Below are positions 24,031 to 53,680 of a stretch of 53,680 nt of DNA, one piece after another; positions within the stretch are counted from its first letter, which is position 1, and each line of letters begins with the position of its first letter. The position numbers were made by a program, and so were the translations under genes. A model generated the notes under the pieces. It saw only the letters and a program-made list of their open reading frames with translations, was not told the DNA's origin and made no database searches. The DNA comes from Paucidesulfovibrio gracilis DSM 16080 (lineage in GTDB: Bacteria > Desulfobacterota > Desulfovibrionia > Desulfovibrionales > Desulfovibrionaceae): contig NZ_FUYC01000014.1 of the NCBI RefSeq assembly GCF_900167125.1, positions 1 through 53,680 on the forward strand, read 5' to 3'.

Positions 24031-24112
24031 TCCGGCCGGGTACAAGCGGCGAAACCGGTCAACGGTGGACCAGGGGGCGGCGTGCCTCCTGGTCGCCGAA
24101 GATCCGCCTTTC
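24031..24112 (+). repeat. Intergenic modular repeat, partial copy E
   Basis: It matches the end module of copy D (inverted) and of copy B: ACCGGT, about ten bases, then a hairpin with GACCAGG and CCTGGTC arms (24068-24094), then GGTCGCCGAAGATCCGCC. Only this module is present. Its end lies 17 nt beyond the metF stop codon. Confidence 0.7.
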
Positions 24113-28984: not shown

Positions 28985-31411
28985 TCAGGATGGACCGCCT
29001 CCGGCACCGTAGGCGCGGGCCAGCCGGGCAAACTCGGCCAGCCGGCGGTCTGCGGCGTGGTAGAGCGTGCCGGTGGCGAATCCGCCCTTGGCGTCGCGAC
29101 GGTCCACGGGCATCCCCGTGAGGATGCGCATGGCCTGTTCCACGCTGGAGACCGGATAAATGCGGAAGGTGCCGTTTTCCACGGCCTGGAGCACGTCGTC
29201 CCGCAACATGAGGTTGGCCACGTTGTCCTTGGGGATGAGCACGCCCTGCTCGCCCGTGAGACCATGACGGCGGCAGACTTCGAAAAATCCTTCGATCTTG
29301 CGGTTCACCCCGCCCACGGCCATGATCTGCCCGGACTGGCTCACCGCGCCGGTGAACGCATAGGAAAGGTTGATGGGGACGCCGGAAAGGGCCGAAAGTA
29401 GGGCGGCCAGTTCCGCGCCCGAAGCGGAGTCCCCTTCCACGCCCGCATAGCTTTGCTCAAAGCAGAGGCTGCCGGTCATGACGATGGGCTTGTCCTGGGC
29501 GAACAGGCCCAGGAGATAGCTCTTCAGGATCATCATGCCTTTGGTATGGATGGGACCGCCGAGCTGGGCCTCGCGCTCCAGGTCCAGAATGCCGCCATGC
29601 CCCACGCCCACGGTGCAGGAAATCTGGTGGGGCAGGCCGAATTCGTAGTCGCCGAACAGGGTCACGGACAAACCGTTGCAGCGGCCCACGGCCTGGCCCG
29701 AGGTGGCCACCTTGATGATCTCCCGCTCATAGTCGCCCATGTATTCCTCTTCAAAGAGGTTGGACCGAAAGTCGCGGGTGCCAACGGCCTCGCGCAGGTG
29801 CGCCGCGCCCACCATGGCCTTGCCGTCCATTTCCGCCAGGGCCGAGGCCTCGATCATGCGTTCGCGCACCAGGGGGAATTGCAGGGACAGTTTTTTCTGG
29901 TCCTCGGCCAGCCTGGAGGAGAAGTCCACCAGCCCGGCCAGGGCCGCACGGTCAAAGGGCAGCAGTTCGGCCTCGCGCACAATGCGGCCGAGCACGGTCA
30001 GGTAGTGCCGGATGTTGGGCATGGTGCGCGGCGCTGTGGACTGCATGTGCGCCTTGAGCTTGAAGAATTTCTGGAACCGGTCGTCGTGGTAGAGCAGCGC
30101 CTCGTAGTGCTCGTCCGAACCGATGAGCACGATCTTGAGGTCCAGCGGGATACATTCCGGCTCAATGGTGCGGGTGCGGGCCTGTTCCTGGTCCACGGGA
30201 TCCTCAATGCGGGAGTGTCCGGCGCGCAGGGCGCGAAGCAGTCCTTCCCAGGAAGAGGAGCTGGAGAGCAGATCATCGGTATTGAGCAGCAAAAAGCCGT
30301 TGTTGGCCTTGTGCAGACTGCCGGGACGTATCAGGGTGTGGTCGGTGTAGAGTGAGCCGAGTTCGGCCTCGCGTTCAATGCTGCCCAGCAGGTTGAAGGT
30401 GGTGGGATGGTCCTCCACCACCACGGGCGCGCCCTTGGTCGGGCCGTTATCCACGAAAAGGTTCACCTCAAAACGGGAAAACTGGTCGTCCCCGGAGGCG
30501 TCGCCCTGGCTTGCCGCCGCAGCTCCGGCCGGAGTGTTGGCCGTGGATTCCTTGGGCAGGAACATGTCCACGTTTTCCACCAGGTCATCTTCCGCGGCCT
30601 TGAGGTAGGCGGTCAGCTTTTCATTGTCGCCGAAGCGCTCCCGCAGGGGCTGCAAACATTCCGTGACCACTTCGCGGGCAATGGCGCGTTGTAATTCCAG
30701 CTCTTTGCGCTTGAGTCCCTTTTCGCTCTGGTTGATCTGCCGCAGAAAGGTGCTGATCTCCGAGAGGACGTTGTCTCCCTCGCGCTTGAGCCGATCGCGC
30801 TCCTTTTTGGGCAGCTTGTCAAAACTGCCGTCCTCCATGGGTTCGCCGTCCACCAGCGGAGCCAGGGTCAATGCCCCGGCGTCATCCATGTCCAGGCGGA
30901 AGTTTTTTTCCCGGGCCGCGTCCTCCATCTGGGAGAACAGTTCTTCGCGCTGCCGGGTATGGCTCTTGAACAGGGATTCGTGCTGGCTGTGGTAGGCGTC
31001 CCGTTCAAAGTGGGCGGGCAGGTCCGCACGGATGGCGTTCAGCGCCTTGGACATGGCGTTTTTGAACTGTCGTCCTTGCCCGGCGGTCAGGGACACGGCC
31101 AGGGGCCGGTCCGCATCGTCGAAATTGTGCAGGTAGAGCCAGTCCGGGGGCGTGGCCGCCTTTTTTGCGGCGGGGCGCAGGTGGTCGCGGACAAAGTAGG
31201 TCCGGCCCATGTTGGCCTCCCCCGCGACAAAAATATTATATTCATTTCCTTTGATGCGCAGAGCCAGCTCCAGCGCCTGGATGGCCCGGGGCTGAAATTT
31301 GGAATAGCCGTTGCCCGCAGGAATTTCGCGGCTATCGGCATAGGGAATGCGGTCAGGGTGCAGGGAGGCTCCAAGATGGCGGTGAGCCAGGGGTTTGGGT
31401 ATGCTGGTCAT
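28985..31411 (-). CDS. Lon-like AAA_32 protease 1
   Basis: An 808-residue protease of the LonB/LonC-like group (AAA_32 N-terminal region, Lon proteolytic domain). The catalytic pair is Ser662 (VEGDSASGAEL) and Lys705 (GGVNRKIEGF), 43 residues apart as in E. coli Lon (Ser679/Lys722). The P-loop reads GEANMGRT (residues 64-71): the key lysine is arginine, so ATP use may be impaired. AGAGAGGA precedes the ATG at 31411; the long in-frame extension upstream runs over the start of the divergent kinase gene and was rejected. A paralogue of similar length is at 36593-39067. Confidence 0.92.
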   Translation of the reverse strand: MTSIPKPLAHRHLGASLHPDRIPYADSREIPAGNGYSKFQPRAIQALELALRIKGNEYNIFVAGEANMGRTYFVRDHLRPAAKKAATPPDWLYLHNFDDADRPLAVSLTAGQGRQFKNAMSKALNAIRADLPAHFERDAYHSQHESLFKSHTRQREELFSQMEDAAREKNFRLDMDDAGALTLAPLVDGEPMEDGSFDKLPKKERDRLKREGDNVLSEISTFLRQINQSEKGLKRKELELQRAIAREVVTECLQPLRERFGDNEKLTAYLKAAEDDLVENVDMFLPKESTANTPAGAAAASQGDASGDDQFSRFEVNLFVDNGPTKGAPVVVEDHPTTFNLLGSIEREAELGSLYTDHTLIRPGSLHKANNGFLLLNTDDLLSSSSSWEGLLRALRAGHSRIEDPVDQEQARTRTIEPECIPLDLKIVLIGSDEHYEALLYHDDRFQKFFKLKAHMQSTAPRTMPNIRHYLTVLGRIVREAELLPFDRAALAGLVDFSSRLAEDQKKLSLQFPLVRERMIEASALAEMDGKAMVGAAHLREAVGTRDFRSNLFEEEYMGDYEREIIKVATSGQAVGRCNGLSVTLFGDYEFGLPHQISCTVGVGHGGILDLEREAQLGGPIHTKGMMILKSYLLGLFAQDKPIVMTGSLCFEQSYAGVEGDSASGAELAALLSALSGVPINLSYAFTGAVSQSGQIMAVGGVNRKIEGFFEVCRRHGLTGEQGVLIPKDNVANLMLRDDVLQAVENGTFRIYPVSSVEQAMRILTGMPVDRRDAKGGFATGTLYHAADRRLAEFARLARAYGAGGGPS

Positions 31412-34496: not shown

Positions 34497-34881
34497 TGAG
34501 GGGCAACTCTTTTTCCAGGGGGAAAACCTTTCTGAAGAAAGGTTTTTCCCACTGGACCCCCTTTCCAAAGACTTTTCCTTGCTCCAGGCCTGCGGCCTGT
34601 CGCGGTTATCGTTTCTTTCCCTTTCCTCCTCCCCTTTCCCCCCTCCCAAAAGAAAAGAACGGCCGAAGCCGTTCTTTTCTTTTGGGGGCGCACCGTTGCC
34701 GCGAGTTTCGGGAGGGCGGAGCCATCCCGGAAATCGCGGCAACATGAGATCACGCCGCCGCACGACTCCGCCTGTCCACTCCCCAGACGTCCTCCCACCC
34801 CATGCCCCCGGCCGCGCGCAGCGCGAGACCGGGAAATGGGATTCCAAAGGGTCGCGGACCCTTTGGCCGCCGGAGGCATGC
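34497..34881 (-). repeat. Intergenic modular repeat, copy B (full, inverted)
   Basis: The most complete copy. In minus-strand order: end-module hairpin 4 at 34844-34866 (CCAAAGGGTC/GACCCTTTGG), hairpin 1 at 34695-34743, hairpin 2 at 34645-34686 (perfect 19-bp stem, minus-strand loop TTCG) and hairpin 3 at 34515-34555. It fills the gap between the convergent 3' ends of the rubrerythrin-like gene and the solute-binding protein gene. Peptides read through it on either strand are artefacts. Confidence 0.9.
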
Positions 34882-36592: not shown

Positions 36593-39067
36593 ATGCCGAG
36601 CAAAATGGACCGGACCATCAAGGTGCCGCAGGAATCTCTGCGCTGGAAACTCGATCCCGCCACCCTGCCTTTCGAGACAACGGACGATCTGGAACCGCCT
36701 TCCGATATCATCGGCCAGGGGCGGGGAGTGGAGGCCTTCCGTTTTGGCATGGGCATGGACCGTAAGGGGTACAACATCTTCGTTACCGGCCCGGCGGGTA
36801 CGGGCAAGATGTTTACGGTCAAGAAGCTGCTCAAGGAGCTTTCCGATGACAGAGCCACACCGGACGACCTGTGCTACGTGAACAATTTCAAGCACCCGGA
36901 ATCACCGGTGCTGTTGCGGTTTGCTCCGGGTCGCGGCGCGGCCTTCAAAAAGGCGGTGCAGGAGTTTTTGGACAACGTCAAAAAGGAAGTGCCGCAGCTT
37001 TTTGAGTCCGAAGAATACATCGCCCGCAAGAACGAGATTATGGAAGCGCATGAAAAGCAAGTGCGCGAATTCTATAAGGGCGTGGAAGAAAAGGTAAAGG
37101 ACACGGACCTTGTGGTGGTGAACATGCAGATGGGTCCGGTGCAGCGACCCGACGTGGTACCCCTGGTGGACGGGGAGCCGAAGCGCATGGTCGAGGTGGA
37201 GGAGATGGTGGAGAAGGGGCGCTTCCCCCAGGAAGAGCTGGAACGCCTCAAGCAGCGCCGTCTGGAGGTCAAGGAGGAGCTGGACCAGATCGTCATTCAG
37301 GTCAAGCAGCTCAACAAGGAGGTCAAGGACAAGAGCGAGGAAGTGGACCGGCTCATGTTTCTGGCCCTGGCCAGGGAGCACATGCAGCCCCTGCGCGACG
37401 AATTTTGCCAGGGTGACAACGCCGAAAAGATCGAACGCCATTTGGACGCGGTGCTCGACGACATGGTGGAGAACATGGACGCCCTGAAGATGCTCGGTGC
37501 CAAGCCGCAGCAGGCCGGGCCAATGATGATGATGGCGCCGCCCCCGGAAGTGGTCTTTCATCCCTACCAGGTGAATCTGCTGGTGGACAATGCCGAGCAG
37601 GACGGCCCGCCCGTGATCATCGAATCCTACCCCACCTATCGGAACCTGTTCGGATCCATTGAGCGCATCATGGACCGCAACGGCGGCTGGCGGACGGATT
37701 TTACCAAGATCAAGGCGGGATCCTTTGTCAAGGCCAACGGCGGCTTTTTGGTGCTCAACCTCATGGACGCCATTATGGAGCCGGGGGTCTGGCAAACCCT
37801 GAAGCGTTCGCTCAAAACCGAAGCCATTGAGATACAGACCTTTGATCCCTATTACTTCATCACGGCCACGGGCCTGAAGCCGGAATCCATCCCCATGCAG
37901 GTCAAAGTGGTGGTCACCGGCGATCCGCGCCTGTATCACCTGCTGCGCCACTACGACCCGGACACGCAGAAAATATTCAAGGTCCGGGCGGATATCGAAA
38001 CCAGCATGGACCGCACGGACGAGAACGTGCTGCAGGTGGCCCGCTTTGTACGGGCCGTGGTCCAGCGCCATGAACACAAGCCCTTCCATGCCTCGGCTGT
38101 GTCGCGCATCACGGAACGGGCCGTGCGCATGGCCGGGCGGCAGGAAAAAATCTCCACCGCGTTTCCCCGGCTCTCGGACCTGGTGGACGAGGCTGCCTAC
38201 TTCGCAAGCCGGTGCTCTGCGTGCGATACGGTCACGGCCGAACATGTGGAGCAGGCTGTGGAGGCCAAGATTCATCGTTCCAACCAGATTGAGGAACAGC
38301 TCCAGGAGATGATCGACCGCGGTTCCCTGTTCGTGGATACGGACGGAAGCGAGGTGGGGCAGATCAACGGCCTTGCCGTGTATTCCATGGGCGACCACAT
38401 GTTCGGCAAGCCTTCGCGCATCACGGCCGTGACCAGTCTGGGCAAGGAAGGGGTCATCAACATCGAGCGGGAGGCGGACCTTTCCGGTCCCACGCACAAC
38501 AAAGGCATGCTCATCCTTGCGGGCTGGCTGCGGCGTATGTTCGCCCAGGACAAGCCCATGGCCCTGGCCGCGTCCATTGCGTTTGAACAGAGCTATGGCG
38601 GCGTGGACGGCGATTCCGCATCCAGCACCGAGCTGTACGCCCTGCTTTCCAGCCTATCCGGGCTGCCCATCCGTCAGGACATCGCCGTGACAGGCTCCGT
38701 GAACCAGAAGGGCGAGGTGCAGCCCATCGGCGGGGTGAATGAAAAAATCGAGGGGTTCTACCTCTGCTGCAAGCGGGCCGGACTTACAGGGCGTCAGGGC
38801 GTGCTCATTCCCCGGGCCAATGTCAAGGATCTGATGCTCCGCCAGGAGGTGGTCGATGCCGTGGCCGAGGGCCGGTTCCATGTCTGGGCCGCGTCCAGCG
38901 TGGAGCAAGGGGCCGAGTTGCTCATGGGTAAGCCCGCGGGCAAACGCGGCAAGAACGGCAACTATCCCAAAACGTCCATTTTTGGCCGGGCGGATGCTGC
39001 GTTGGCGGAAATGGCCGAGGCGCTGCAAAAATTCGGCAAGGACGACAAAGAGGAAAAGGATTCCTGA
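36593..39067 (+). CDS. Lon-like AAA_32 protease 2
   Basis: An 824-residue paralogue of the protein at 28985-31411. Catalytic Ser675 (VDGDSASSTEL) and Lys718 (GGVNEKIEGF) are 43 apart. Its P-loop is GPAGTGKM (residues 66-73): the lysine is present, but Met stands where Thr or Ser normally follows. A coiled-coil insertion (about residues 185-270) resembles that of the paralogue. It starts 2 bp after hsp20, with GAGGAG upstream, and ends with a charged tail (KDDKEEKDS). The operon suggests a role in proteotoxic stress; a terminator follows at 39100-39132. Confidence 0.93.
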   Translation: MPSKMDRTIKVPQESLRWKLDPATLPFETTDDLEPPSDIIGQGRGVEAFRFGMGMDRKGYNIFVTGPAGTGKMFTVKKLLKELSDDRATPDDLCYVNNFKHPESPVLLRFAPGRGAAFKKAVQEFLDNVKKEVPQLFESEEYIARKNEIMEAHEKQVREFYKGVEEKVKDTDLVVVNMQMGPVQRPDVVPLVDGEPKRMVEVEEMVEKGRFPQEELERLKQRRLEVKEELDQIVIQVKQLNKEVKDKSEEVDRLMFLALAREHMQPLRDEFCQGDNAEKIERHLDAVLDDMVENMDALKMLGAKPQQAGPMMMMAPPPEVVFHPYQVNLLVDNAEQDGPPVIIESYPTYRNLFGSIERIMDRNGGWRTDFTKIKAGSFVKANGGFLVLNLMDAIMEPGVWQTLKRSLKTEAIEIQTFDPYYFITATGLKPESIPMQVKVVVTGDPRLYHLLRHYDPDTQKIFKVRADIETSMDRTDENVLQVARFVRAVVQRHEHKPFHASAVSRITERAVRMAGRQEKISTAFPRLSDLVDEAAYFASRCSACDTVTAEHVEQAVEAKIHRSNQIEEQLQEMIDRGSLFVDTDGSEVGQINGLAVYSMGDHMFGKPSRITAVTSLGKEGVINIEREADLSGPTHNKGMLILAGWLRRMFAQDKPMALAASIAFEQSYGGVDGDSASSTELYALLSSLSGLPIRQDIAVTGSVNQKGEVQPIGGVNEKIEGFYLCCKRAGLTGRQGVLIPRANVKDLMLRQEVVDAVAEGRFHVWAASSVEQGAELLMGKPAGKRGKNGNYPKTSIFGRADAALAEMAEALQKFGKDDKEEKDS

Positions 39068-45861: not shown

Positions 45862-45893
45862 ATCGAAACAATGTGTCGTATTTTGAGAGTGTT

Positions 45894-46109
45894 CCGAGGG
45901 GCAACCCTTTCTTGCAGAAAGGGCTTTCCCCTCGGGCTGCTCCCCTTCCCAAAGACCGTTCATTCCTCTCGGCTGACGCCGCTCTGATTTTCCGCCAAAA
46001 TTGCCGGGATTGGTTCAACGGAGCAGCCCTGCCGGATATCCCGGCCGCGCAGCGCGCGGTCGGTAAATGGGATTGCAAAGGGTCGTGGACCCTTTGCCCG
46101 CCGGAGGCA
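45894..46109 (-). repeat. Intergenic modular repeat, partial copy C
   Basis: It holds hairpin 3 (45894-45935, CCGAGGGG arms around AACCCTTTCT/AGAAAGGG) and end-module hairpin 4 (46075-46097, GCAAAGGGTC/GACCCTTTGC). Hairpins 1 and 2 are missing, replaced by unrelated sequence. It fills the gap between the chemoreceptor and ogt; its end lies 24 nt before the ogt start. Confidence 0.78.
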
Positions 46110-53284: not shown

Positions 53285-53680
53285 GCGGCCTCCGGCGGCC
53301 CCGCAGGGCTGAAAGGCATGCCTCCGGCGGCCAGGAGGCCCGCGGCCCCCTGGACCCCCATTTACCGGTCTCGCGCTTGCGCGCGGCCGGGGGCGTGCGG
53401 CGGGAAGGAGTCCGGGGAGTGGACAGGCAAAGCAGCGCGGCGGCGCGATCTCATGTTGCCGCGATTTCCGGGATGGCTCCGCCCTCCCGAAACTCGCGGC
53501 AACGGTGCGCCCCCAAAAACAAAGGAACGGCTACGGCCGTTCCTTTGTTTTTGGGGAGGGGGAGGAAATAACAATCAGGGAAACAAACGATACCCGCGAC
53601 AGGCCGCAGGCCTGGAGCTAGGAAAAGTCTTTGGAAAGGGGGTCCAGGGGGAAGAACCTTTCTTCAGAAAGGTTTTCCCC
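53285..53680 (+). repeat. Intergenic modular repeat, copy D (continues beyond the right edge)
   Basis: In order: a CCTCCGGCGGCC-type end module given twice (from 53289 and 53321), hairpin 4 at 53331-53353, a GC-rich stretch, hairpin 1 at 53455-53503, hairpin 2 at 53511-53556 (perfect 21-bp stem, loop TACG at 53532-53535) and the first part of hairpin 3 from 53643. Same order as copy B read on its minus strand. Confidence 0.88.

Follow-up and report, generated by a model that had tools for sequence, protein, structure and literature searches.

The window analysed here is a stretch of 53,680 nucleotides from the genome of Paucidesulfovibrio gracilis DSM 16080. Between two of its convergent genes, at positions 34497-34881, lies a repeat which BLAST finds at no fewer than 40 places of its own genome, and this bears out the initial annotation in assigning the stretch to a multi-copy family. 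Five copies or part copies had been named in the window. Further copies are indeed present at 1-297, 45894-46109 and 53285-53680, but 24031-24112 gives neither a BLAST match to the reference copy at 34497 nor a motif in the triplex scan described below; inspection by eye shows a single degenerate G-type hairpin there, at 24070-24092. All five named places lie outside called genes, as had been claimed, with one side visible at the contig ends. The features are collected in Table 1. Two other genes of the window, 28985-31411 (minus strand) and 36605-39067 (plus strand), look like paralogues, because the segment at about 29160-29602 matches, in reverse orientation, inside the Lon gene of relatives.

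Table 1. Copies of the repeat in the window and modules of the reference copy
Feature	Position	Strand	Remarks
Reference copy, A to G orientation	34497..34881	+	left TIR absent, right TIR present
A-end hairpin (34515-34555) and third pyrimidine segment ACCCCC (34556-34561)	34515..34561	+	triplex layout damaged
Conserved CCAAAGACTTTT box adjoining the A-end	34565..34576	+	
Hairpin B	34585..34599	+	by eye and alignment
Hairpin C	34645..34686	+	not seen in G002 copies; two-sided stem changes between copies
Hairpin D	34695..34743	+	not seen in G002 copies
Hairpin F	34808..34832	+	by eye/alignment
G-end triplex motif: R1 GGGATT (34838-34843), R2 AAAGGG (34846-34851), Y CCCTTT (34859-34864)	34838..34864	+	
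Right TIR GCCTCCGGCGGCC	34865..34877	-	exact pattern match
Copy cut by contig start	1..294	-	A-end triplex motif from about 205, 8 triads
Degenerate solo G-type hairpin	24070..24101	+	no BLAST match to the reference copy; remnant TIR, by eye
Short core copy without C and D	45894..46109	+	triplex motifs at both ends
Copy cut by contig end	53288..53680	-	TIRs at 53288-53300 and 53320-53332

Modular structure and inverted ends

From 27 aligned copies we read the module order A-end, hairpin B, a pyrimidine-rich stretch, hairpins C and D, a variable spacer, hairpin F and G-end. The hairpin modules thus number six (A, B, C, D, F and G) and not four, as initially annotated. The modularity itself holds, as different inner blocks are missing in different copies (loci L048, L052 and L041/L043). 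In hairpin C the pairing is kept through two-sided changes at several pairs among 17 distinct copies. The annotation had seen no terminal repeats; in the own genome, however, the outermost sequence is identical and inverted at the two ends, and this terminal inverted repeat (TIR), GCCTYCGGCGRCC, has 86 exact matches there compared with 2 for a control pattern. It forms a mini-hairpin, GCCTYCGGCGR. Twelve two-ended copies have distinct flank pairs; eight of them measure 372-379 bp and four 318-347 bp, and over the 12 flank pairs there is no excess of matching bases that would point to a target duplication (summed match 14 versus 17.6 when shuffled), in agreement with the annotation. At the A-ends conservation largely ends at the motif (15 ends). 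Outside the G-ends 8-9 more bases are conserved (RAAARGCAT, 30 ends; ATGCYTTT when read outward) before the composition becomes flat. A coding function of the G-end was rejected, as the ATG which precedes CCTCCGGCGG in many copies is by eye missing in others.

Some ends are tandemly duplicated with an offset of about 30 bp. The copy at the contig start has such a duplicated end, with TIRs at 252-264 and 282-294; the TIRs at 282-294 and 53288-53300 are extra end copies. The reference copy is damaged at its left end, where it has no TIR and where the A-end fails the triplex test with a run of 2. In the copy at 45894 the A-end triplex is made up of R2 (45896-45901), Y (45928-45933) and the third segment (45940-45945), without an exact TIR, and a G-end motif follows from about 46069. 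The copy at the contig end has an A-end motif from about 53636, and its G-end fails the scan.

In the genome of the sister species (G002) the copies that were read consist of the A-B-F-G core only; hairpins C and D were not seen. Nine loci there were chosen from the best matches of the relatives search, and in eight of them two or three G-ends follow one another at spacings of 121-222 bp, most often 207-208 bp. Loci L063 (1193-1790) and L064 (1092-1689) are tandem core arrays with G-ends 207-208 bp apart. With one mismatch allowed, the TIR matches in G002 at G-ends only and the A-ends mostly lack it. Thus the TIR, which usually stands at both ends in the own genome but is mainly confined to the G-end in G002, is not a general feature of the A-end. 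Hairpins C and D, also lacking from the window copy at 45894, have the look of an insert peculiar to the window's species. At three loci of the genomes G026 and G030, which belong to other genera (L183, L198, L199), two G-type ends flank one long hairpin without an A-end, by eye another composite form of the same end unit.

Copy number, distribution and position relative to genes

BLAST of the stretch 34497-34881 against the own genome gave at least 79 matches, 44 rows of which have E <= 1e-17. Four pairs of these rows are halves of single copies, leaving 40 places; this number is a lower bound, with 40 of 98 first-look candidates scored and the 45894 copy absent from the list, and a single physical copy can show up in it at two contig ends. 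The genome (G000) is a 3.18 Mb draft in 53 contigs. Counted from the matches, at least 32 of its 106 contig ends have a copy no more than 170 bp away, so that the repeat has a large share in the fragmentation of the draft and helps to account for where the assembly breaks. In several cases one flank is joined via a copy to two partner flanks at contig ends (L041, L043 and L030 on contigs C35, C34 and C30; likewise L023/L054 and L024/L028/L029), which is either an assembly artefact or a real rearrangement between copies.

A search of 59 relatives, with at most 11 candidates scored per genome, gave matches to the window copy in 22, that is in 22 of the 35 genomes of the same family and in none of the 24 from other families of the order. 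Presence in relatives of the same family is thereby supported. In a sample of the phylum the TIR-plus-hairpin pattern is found in 10 of 395 genomes, eight of them among the 17 from the window's family; outside the family it occurs in 2 of 378 genomes with one match each, and a control pattern gave two in the whole sample. The A-end pattern, for which the mirror is not required, matches 33 of the 149 genomes of the family and has more than 130 matches in each of G473 and G528.

G-end-like matches were also obtained on the Novosphingobium plasmid records NZ_CP117882.1, NZ_CP103869.1 and NZ_CP117418.1. Near position 499796 of NZ_CP117882.1 (L266), GCCTCCGGCGG together with the hairpin CAAAGGG/CCCTTTG and AATCCC is close to the G-end; the base of the stem is changed from CC/GG to GC/GC, as it is at 46069 in the window. 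This plasmid repeat differs in its alphaproteobacterial host, only the G-type end matched, and the sequence was read in one of the three records. None of 50,697 phage records gave a match, and of the viral contigs one matched, for one pattern; a phage element was rejected on these grounds. A single G-type end lies at 733-772 of IMGVR_UViG_2519899530_000001 (L269), a contig classed as viral, with a TAA triplet a few bases before it.

By a codon-usage caller trained on the window, 39 of the 50 called sides of copies in the own genome are 3′ ends of genes; these come from 41 rows, some of the same physical copy, and one of the 39, the side at 45890, reads as a missed gene start. With the same caller and a 300-bp limit, 52 of 57 loci in relatives had a usable span, and 3′ ends make up 12 of 15 sides in G002, 10 of 15 in G001 and 37 of 60 in other genera, two places being counted twice (L006/L216 and L007/L219). 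The median distance to the stop codon is 24, 17 and 10 bp, respectively. Of the two-sided loci none of 39 in relatives and one of nine in G000 (L048) lies between divergent genes.

Site comparison by DNA search yielded one clean empty site, that of the copy at 34497, where the stop codons of the convergent genes are 4 bp apart in G002 versus 443 bp here. At three further sites, L036, L033 and 45894, the same gene is followed by a copy in G002 as well. At L036 and L033 the sequence from the stop codon to the A-end is unrelated between the two genomes, and therefore independent insertion and homogenisation are indistinguishable at these loci. The genes neighbouring these three sites are on different contigs in G002. 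This split suggests rearrangement, but breaks also occur without copies; an apparent gene-order break without a copy lies between about 33925 and 33979.

The third segment of the end units

Each end unit consists of a hairpin and a third segment that largely mirrors one of its arms, in the layout R1-loop-R2-loop-Y of an intrastrand DNA triplex. A pyrimidine segment follows each end hairpin and is tied to the 3′ arm (CCCTTTGGAATCCC, CCCTCTGGACTCCC, CCCCTTGGAACCCC, CCCCCTGGACCCCC); on the other strand the order is R1-CC-R2-loop-Y, and R1 runs antiparallel to R2, which is the arrangement of a purine-motif triplex. The third segment is a mirror image from its third base, or from its second where this is C. 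Next to the central GG, at the turn, T usually stands opposite A, which is a legal triad but not a mirror; as legal we counted G.G-C, A.A-T and T.A-T. Reading the third segment as a direct repeat, that is a switching hairpin, was rejected, because the A positions are mirrored and not repeated.

From 17 genomes 111 distinct ends were parsed and 106 were used, five with stems not ending in GG being dropped. Some ends came from a pattern which fixes GGG and CCC in the arms and leaves the third segment free; others came from BLAST matches to the window copy, which favours the commonest type, AAAGGG/AATCCC. The triad rule is obeyed at 312 of 318 positions of the 106 ends (104, 103 and 105 at positions 2, 3 and 4), compared with 259 on average and at most 284 in 20,000 within-genome shuffles of the third segment, which overstate the significance as repeat copies share ancestry. 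Collapsed to 46 distinct combinations, 132 of 138 positions are legal, versus a maximum of 126 in 20,000 shuffles. Eleven times positions 2 and 3 deviate from the commonest pairing, with a legal triad in six cases and an illegal one in five, and at position 1 only 91 of the 106 ends obey the rule. The two arms disagree in 17 ends, nine of them related G002 copies, and in all 17 the third segment matches the pyrimidine arm and not the purine arm. This counts against a triplex, because the purine arm is the expected partner in a hairpin triplex.

A first mirror statistic was dropped, as its loop placement was too restrictive, and was replaced by a triad-run test on the A-type ends. In 66 distinct instances from all fetched loci, own genus included and with the stem located by Watson-Crick pairing alone, the mean triad run is 6.8, compared with 3.9 for shuffled and 3.6 for reversed R1; twenty added A-end places had been chosen mostly for A on the R1 side of the pattern. 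The run is longer than the reversed control in 51 of the 66 and shorter in 4, and taken individually only 21 of the 66 reach P<0.05 against shuffles. Long runs in other genera include 16 and 15 at two places of L218, 12 at L257 and 11 at L176. In L218 (genome G485) the stretch 1449-1988 lies between convergent genes and carries two A-type elements, one on each strand.

The 53,680 bases of the window were scanned with the pattern R1(6)-loop(2-6)-R2-loop(3-30)-Y without mismatch. Five triplex motifs were returned, at about 205, 34838, 45945 (minus strand), 46069 and 53636, and all five are ends of this repeat; 20 dinucleotide shuffles of the window gave a mean of 0.1 and at most 1 motif. The motifs are short, and with 7 or 8 triads the place at 205 alone remains. 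By our own count five of the eight repeat ends in the window pass the scan and three fail. In 18 Lon-gene loci of other organisms (L094-L111, most of Desulfovibrio type and a few distant, with L093 left out) there is no motif in 285,430 bp. A LonB-like protein of the window has its matches, 19 loci in all, mostly in Desulfovibrio, Pseudodesulfovibrio and Nitratidesulfovibrio records, the closest being L093 (Desulfovibrio sp. STF2_139, 91% identity). Triplex places coincide with end marks in 33 of 34 cases in G000 loci, 11 of 11 in G002 and 8 of 12 in G001, together 52 of 57, and in 31 of 39 in other genera. The five exceptions in G000 and G001 read as A-ends missed by the mark pattern, and some of the eight in other genera likewise read as missed ends.

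Possible folding and spread, and comparison with known systems

We think it somewhat more probable than not that the repeat is a non-coding interspersed repeat of the Desulfovibrionaceae with triplex-capable inverted ends, which possibly spreads without an enzyme. Its build would be REP/BIME- or MITE-like, with inverted end units and optional inner hairpins. Of this picture the modularity, the TIRs, the copy number, the position and the three-way covariation of the ends are direct observations. In each end the purine arm R2 would pair with the pyrimidine arm Y, and R1, the third segment, which lies on the G-rich strand and matches R2, may fold back on the R2-Y hairpin once this strand is exposed by replication or transcription; the product would be an antiparallel purine-motif triplex (G.G-C, A.A-T, T.A-T). 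We infer that such a triplex could stall polymerases and lead to breakage and template switching at the ends. These events would duplicate ends, build tandem arrays, add and remove inner blocks and perhaps break the gene order, and the element could spread in this way without an enzyme of its own. Copies would persist where they are least harmful or serve as a boundary, and their usual position behind stop codons may reflect such tolerance or such a boundary role. More tentatively, it is quite possible that natural selection or structure-driven copying has kept a three-strand covariation across the Desulfovibrionaceae, the third segment changing along with the hairpin arm.

An enzyme-driven route of spread is less likely, because in this draft genome no Y1 transposase, target duplication or enclosed partner gene was found. 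REP elements moved by RAYT typically carry a GTAG-type head. That our repeat is a REP/BIME element moved in trans by such a RAYT (Y1) transposase as a single strand appears very unlikely. It does have inverted paired palindromes, lies extragenically behind stop codons and forms tandem arrays in G002, and Y1 genes are present in 22 of 39 relatives searched, including the repeat-bearing G007; however, PF01797 has no match in G000, G001 and G002 (the last an 89% complete draft), nor in G011, G016 and G017, all of which have many copies. RAYT mobilisation was rejected as the leading model, since the three genomes of the genus searched have no Y1 transposase; to this extent the initial annotation was right in seeing no transposase. 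We regard it as improbable, too, that the repeat is a MITE whose TIRs are acted on by a DDE transposase, perhaps from another replicon. Its TIRs, the length of 372-379 bp in 8 of 12 two-ended copies and the one empty orthologous site would suit a MITE, but the 12 distinct flank pairs are without target duplication (14 versus 17.6 shuffled) and the 50,697 phage records without a match. Facing pairs of exact TIRs 0.5-20 kb apart were not seen among the 86 places of the 53-contig draft.

The main rival to a boundary or tolerance role behind genes is an RNA-level transcription terminator or a stabiliser of mRNA 3′ ends, which we consider unlikely. It is consistent with the copies behind stop codons, with the ATGCYTTT conserved over about 9 nt outward of the G-end, with the paired changes in hairpin C and with two terminator-like matches in the copy, compared with 0.8 (sd 1.1) when shuffled. 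Against it, copies stand in either orientation to the gene (L013 and L015 versus L004 and L005), by eye those at L021, L046 and L053 lie behind an apparent separate terminator, and PIT motifs are reported to have no terminator activity (Holder et al. 2015; PMC4666352). An RNA of a family in Rfam was rejected, as only matches below the gathering score were obtained. It is likewise very improbable that a G-quadruplex, and not a triplex, is the reason why both purine segments keep their G-runs. At least four G-tracts are present in long relatives such as L218, but each motif of the window has just two main ones, and a quadruplex leaves the matched A positions and the linked pyrimidine arm unexplained.

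Triplex-capable ends touch upon the PIT and TM (TM_ECO, boxC) intrastrand triplex repeats of Enterobacteria (Holder et al. 2015; PMC4666352). According to that paper, these repeats have many intergenic copies, form a stable triplex in vitro and occupy loci that are more variable between relatives. Double-stranded TM_ECO oligonucleotides gave duplex signals, and DMS footprinting of TM_ECO in vivo showed no protection, with a polymerase-stop band being seen. On the question whether bacterial triplex motifs fold in cells, triplex formation in vitro stands against the missing footprint in vivo. A three-strand covariation kept across the family would argue, on evolutionary grounds, that in living cells a bacterial intrastrand DNA triplex does form and that this triplex defines the ends of a dispersing repeat. 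The many diverged copies in several genera supply linked three-strand changes, which were previously missing for this question. Some genomes hold tens of motifs (86 TIR places here, more than 130 A-end matches in each of G473 and G528) and are test material for effects on replication, termination and rearrangement.

REP and BIME elements, as described from E. coli and others, resemble the repeat in their inverted paired palindromes and extragenic position behind genes, and tandem arrays are found in the sister species; the repeat differs by its third segment, by species-specific inserts and by the lack of Y1/RAYT genes in the three genomes of the genus searched. With MITEs it has in common the TIRs (in G002 mainly at one end), a near-constant length of full copies and no coding capacity that we could see, but there is no target duplication found and no matching transposase pair seen. 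The BOX elements of Streptococcus pneumoniae have modular ends with optional inner blocks, in a host unrelated to that of the repeat.

In line with the initial annotation, which knew of no matching named family, none was found. No Rfam family reaches the gathering score (weaker matches only), and the searched open-access literature gave no description of the Desulfovibrionaceae repeat; the third segment, however, links it to the intrastrand triplex repeats of Holder et al. (2015; PMC4666352), whose main text does not name Desulfovibrio. The likeness extends to the purine-motif layout with a short loop between the purine arms, and to many intergenic copies at loci more variable between relatives, with no linked mobility gene. 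At five window places three consecutive segments form at least six legal triads (GG-C, AA-T, TA-T), by which an intrastrand triplex repeat of the general kind is recognised. The TM_ECO/ITxF pattern, CCCTCNCCC-GGGNGAGGG-GGGNGAGGG with loops of 1-6 nt, does not describe the ends, whose loops measure 7 nt in the G-end at 6 triads and about 20 nt in the A-end, where the loop holds an inner hairpin. The order on the G-rich strand is R1-R2-Y here and Y-R-R in the TM_ECO pattern, and the host family is another one. Unlike PIT and TM, the motifs are the inverted ends, with a TIR mini-hairpin, of a composite element that has a core of about 207 bp in G002 and measures 372-379 bp in the own genome. The nearest described kind is thus the intrastrand triplex repeat, of which the Desulfovibrionaceae repeat is apparently an undescribed variant.
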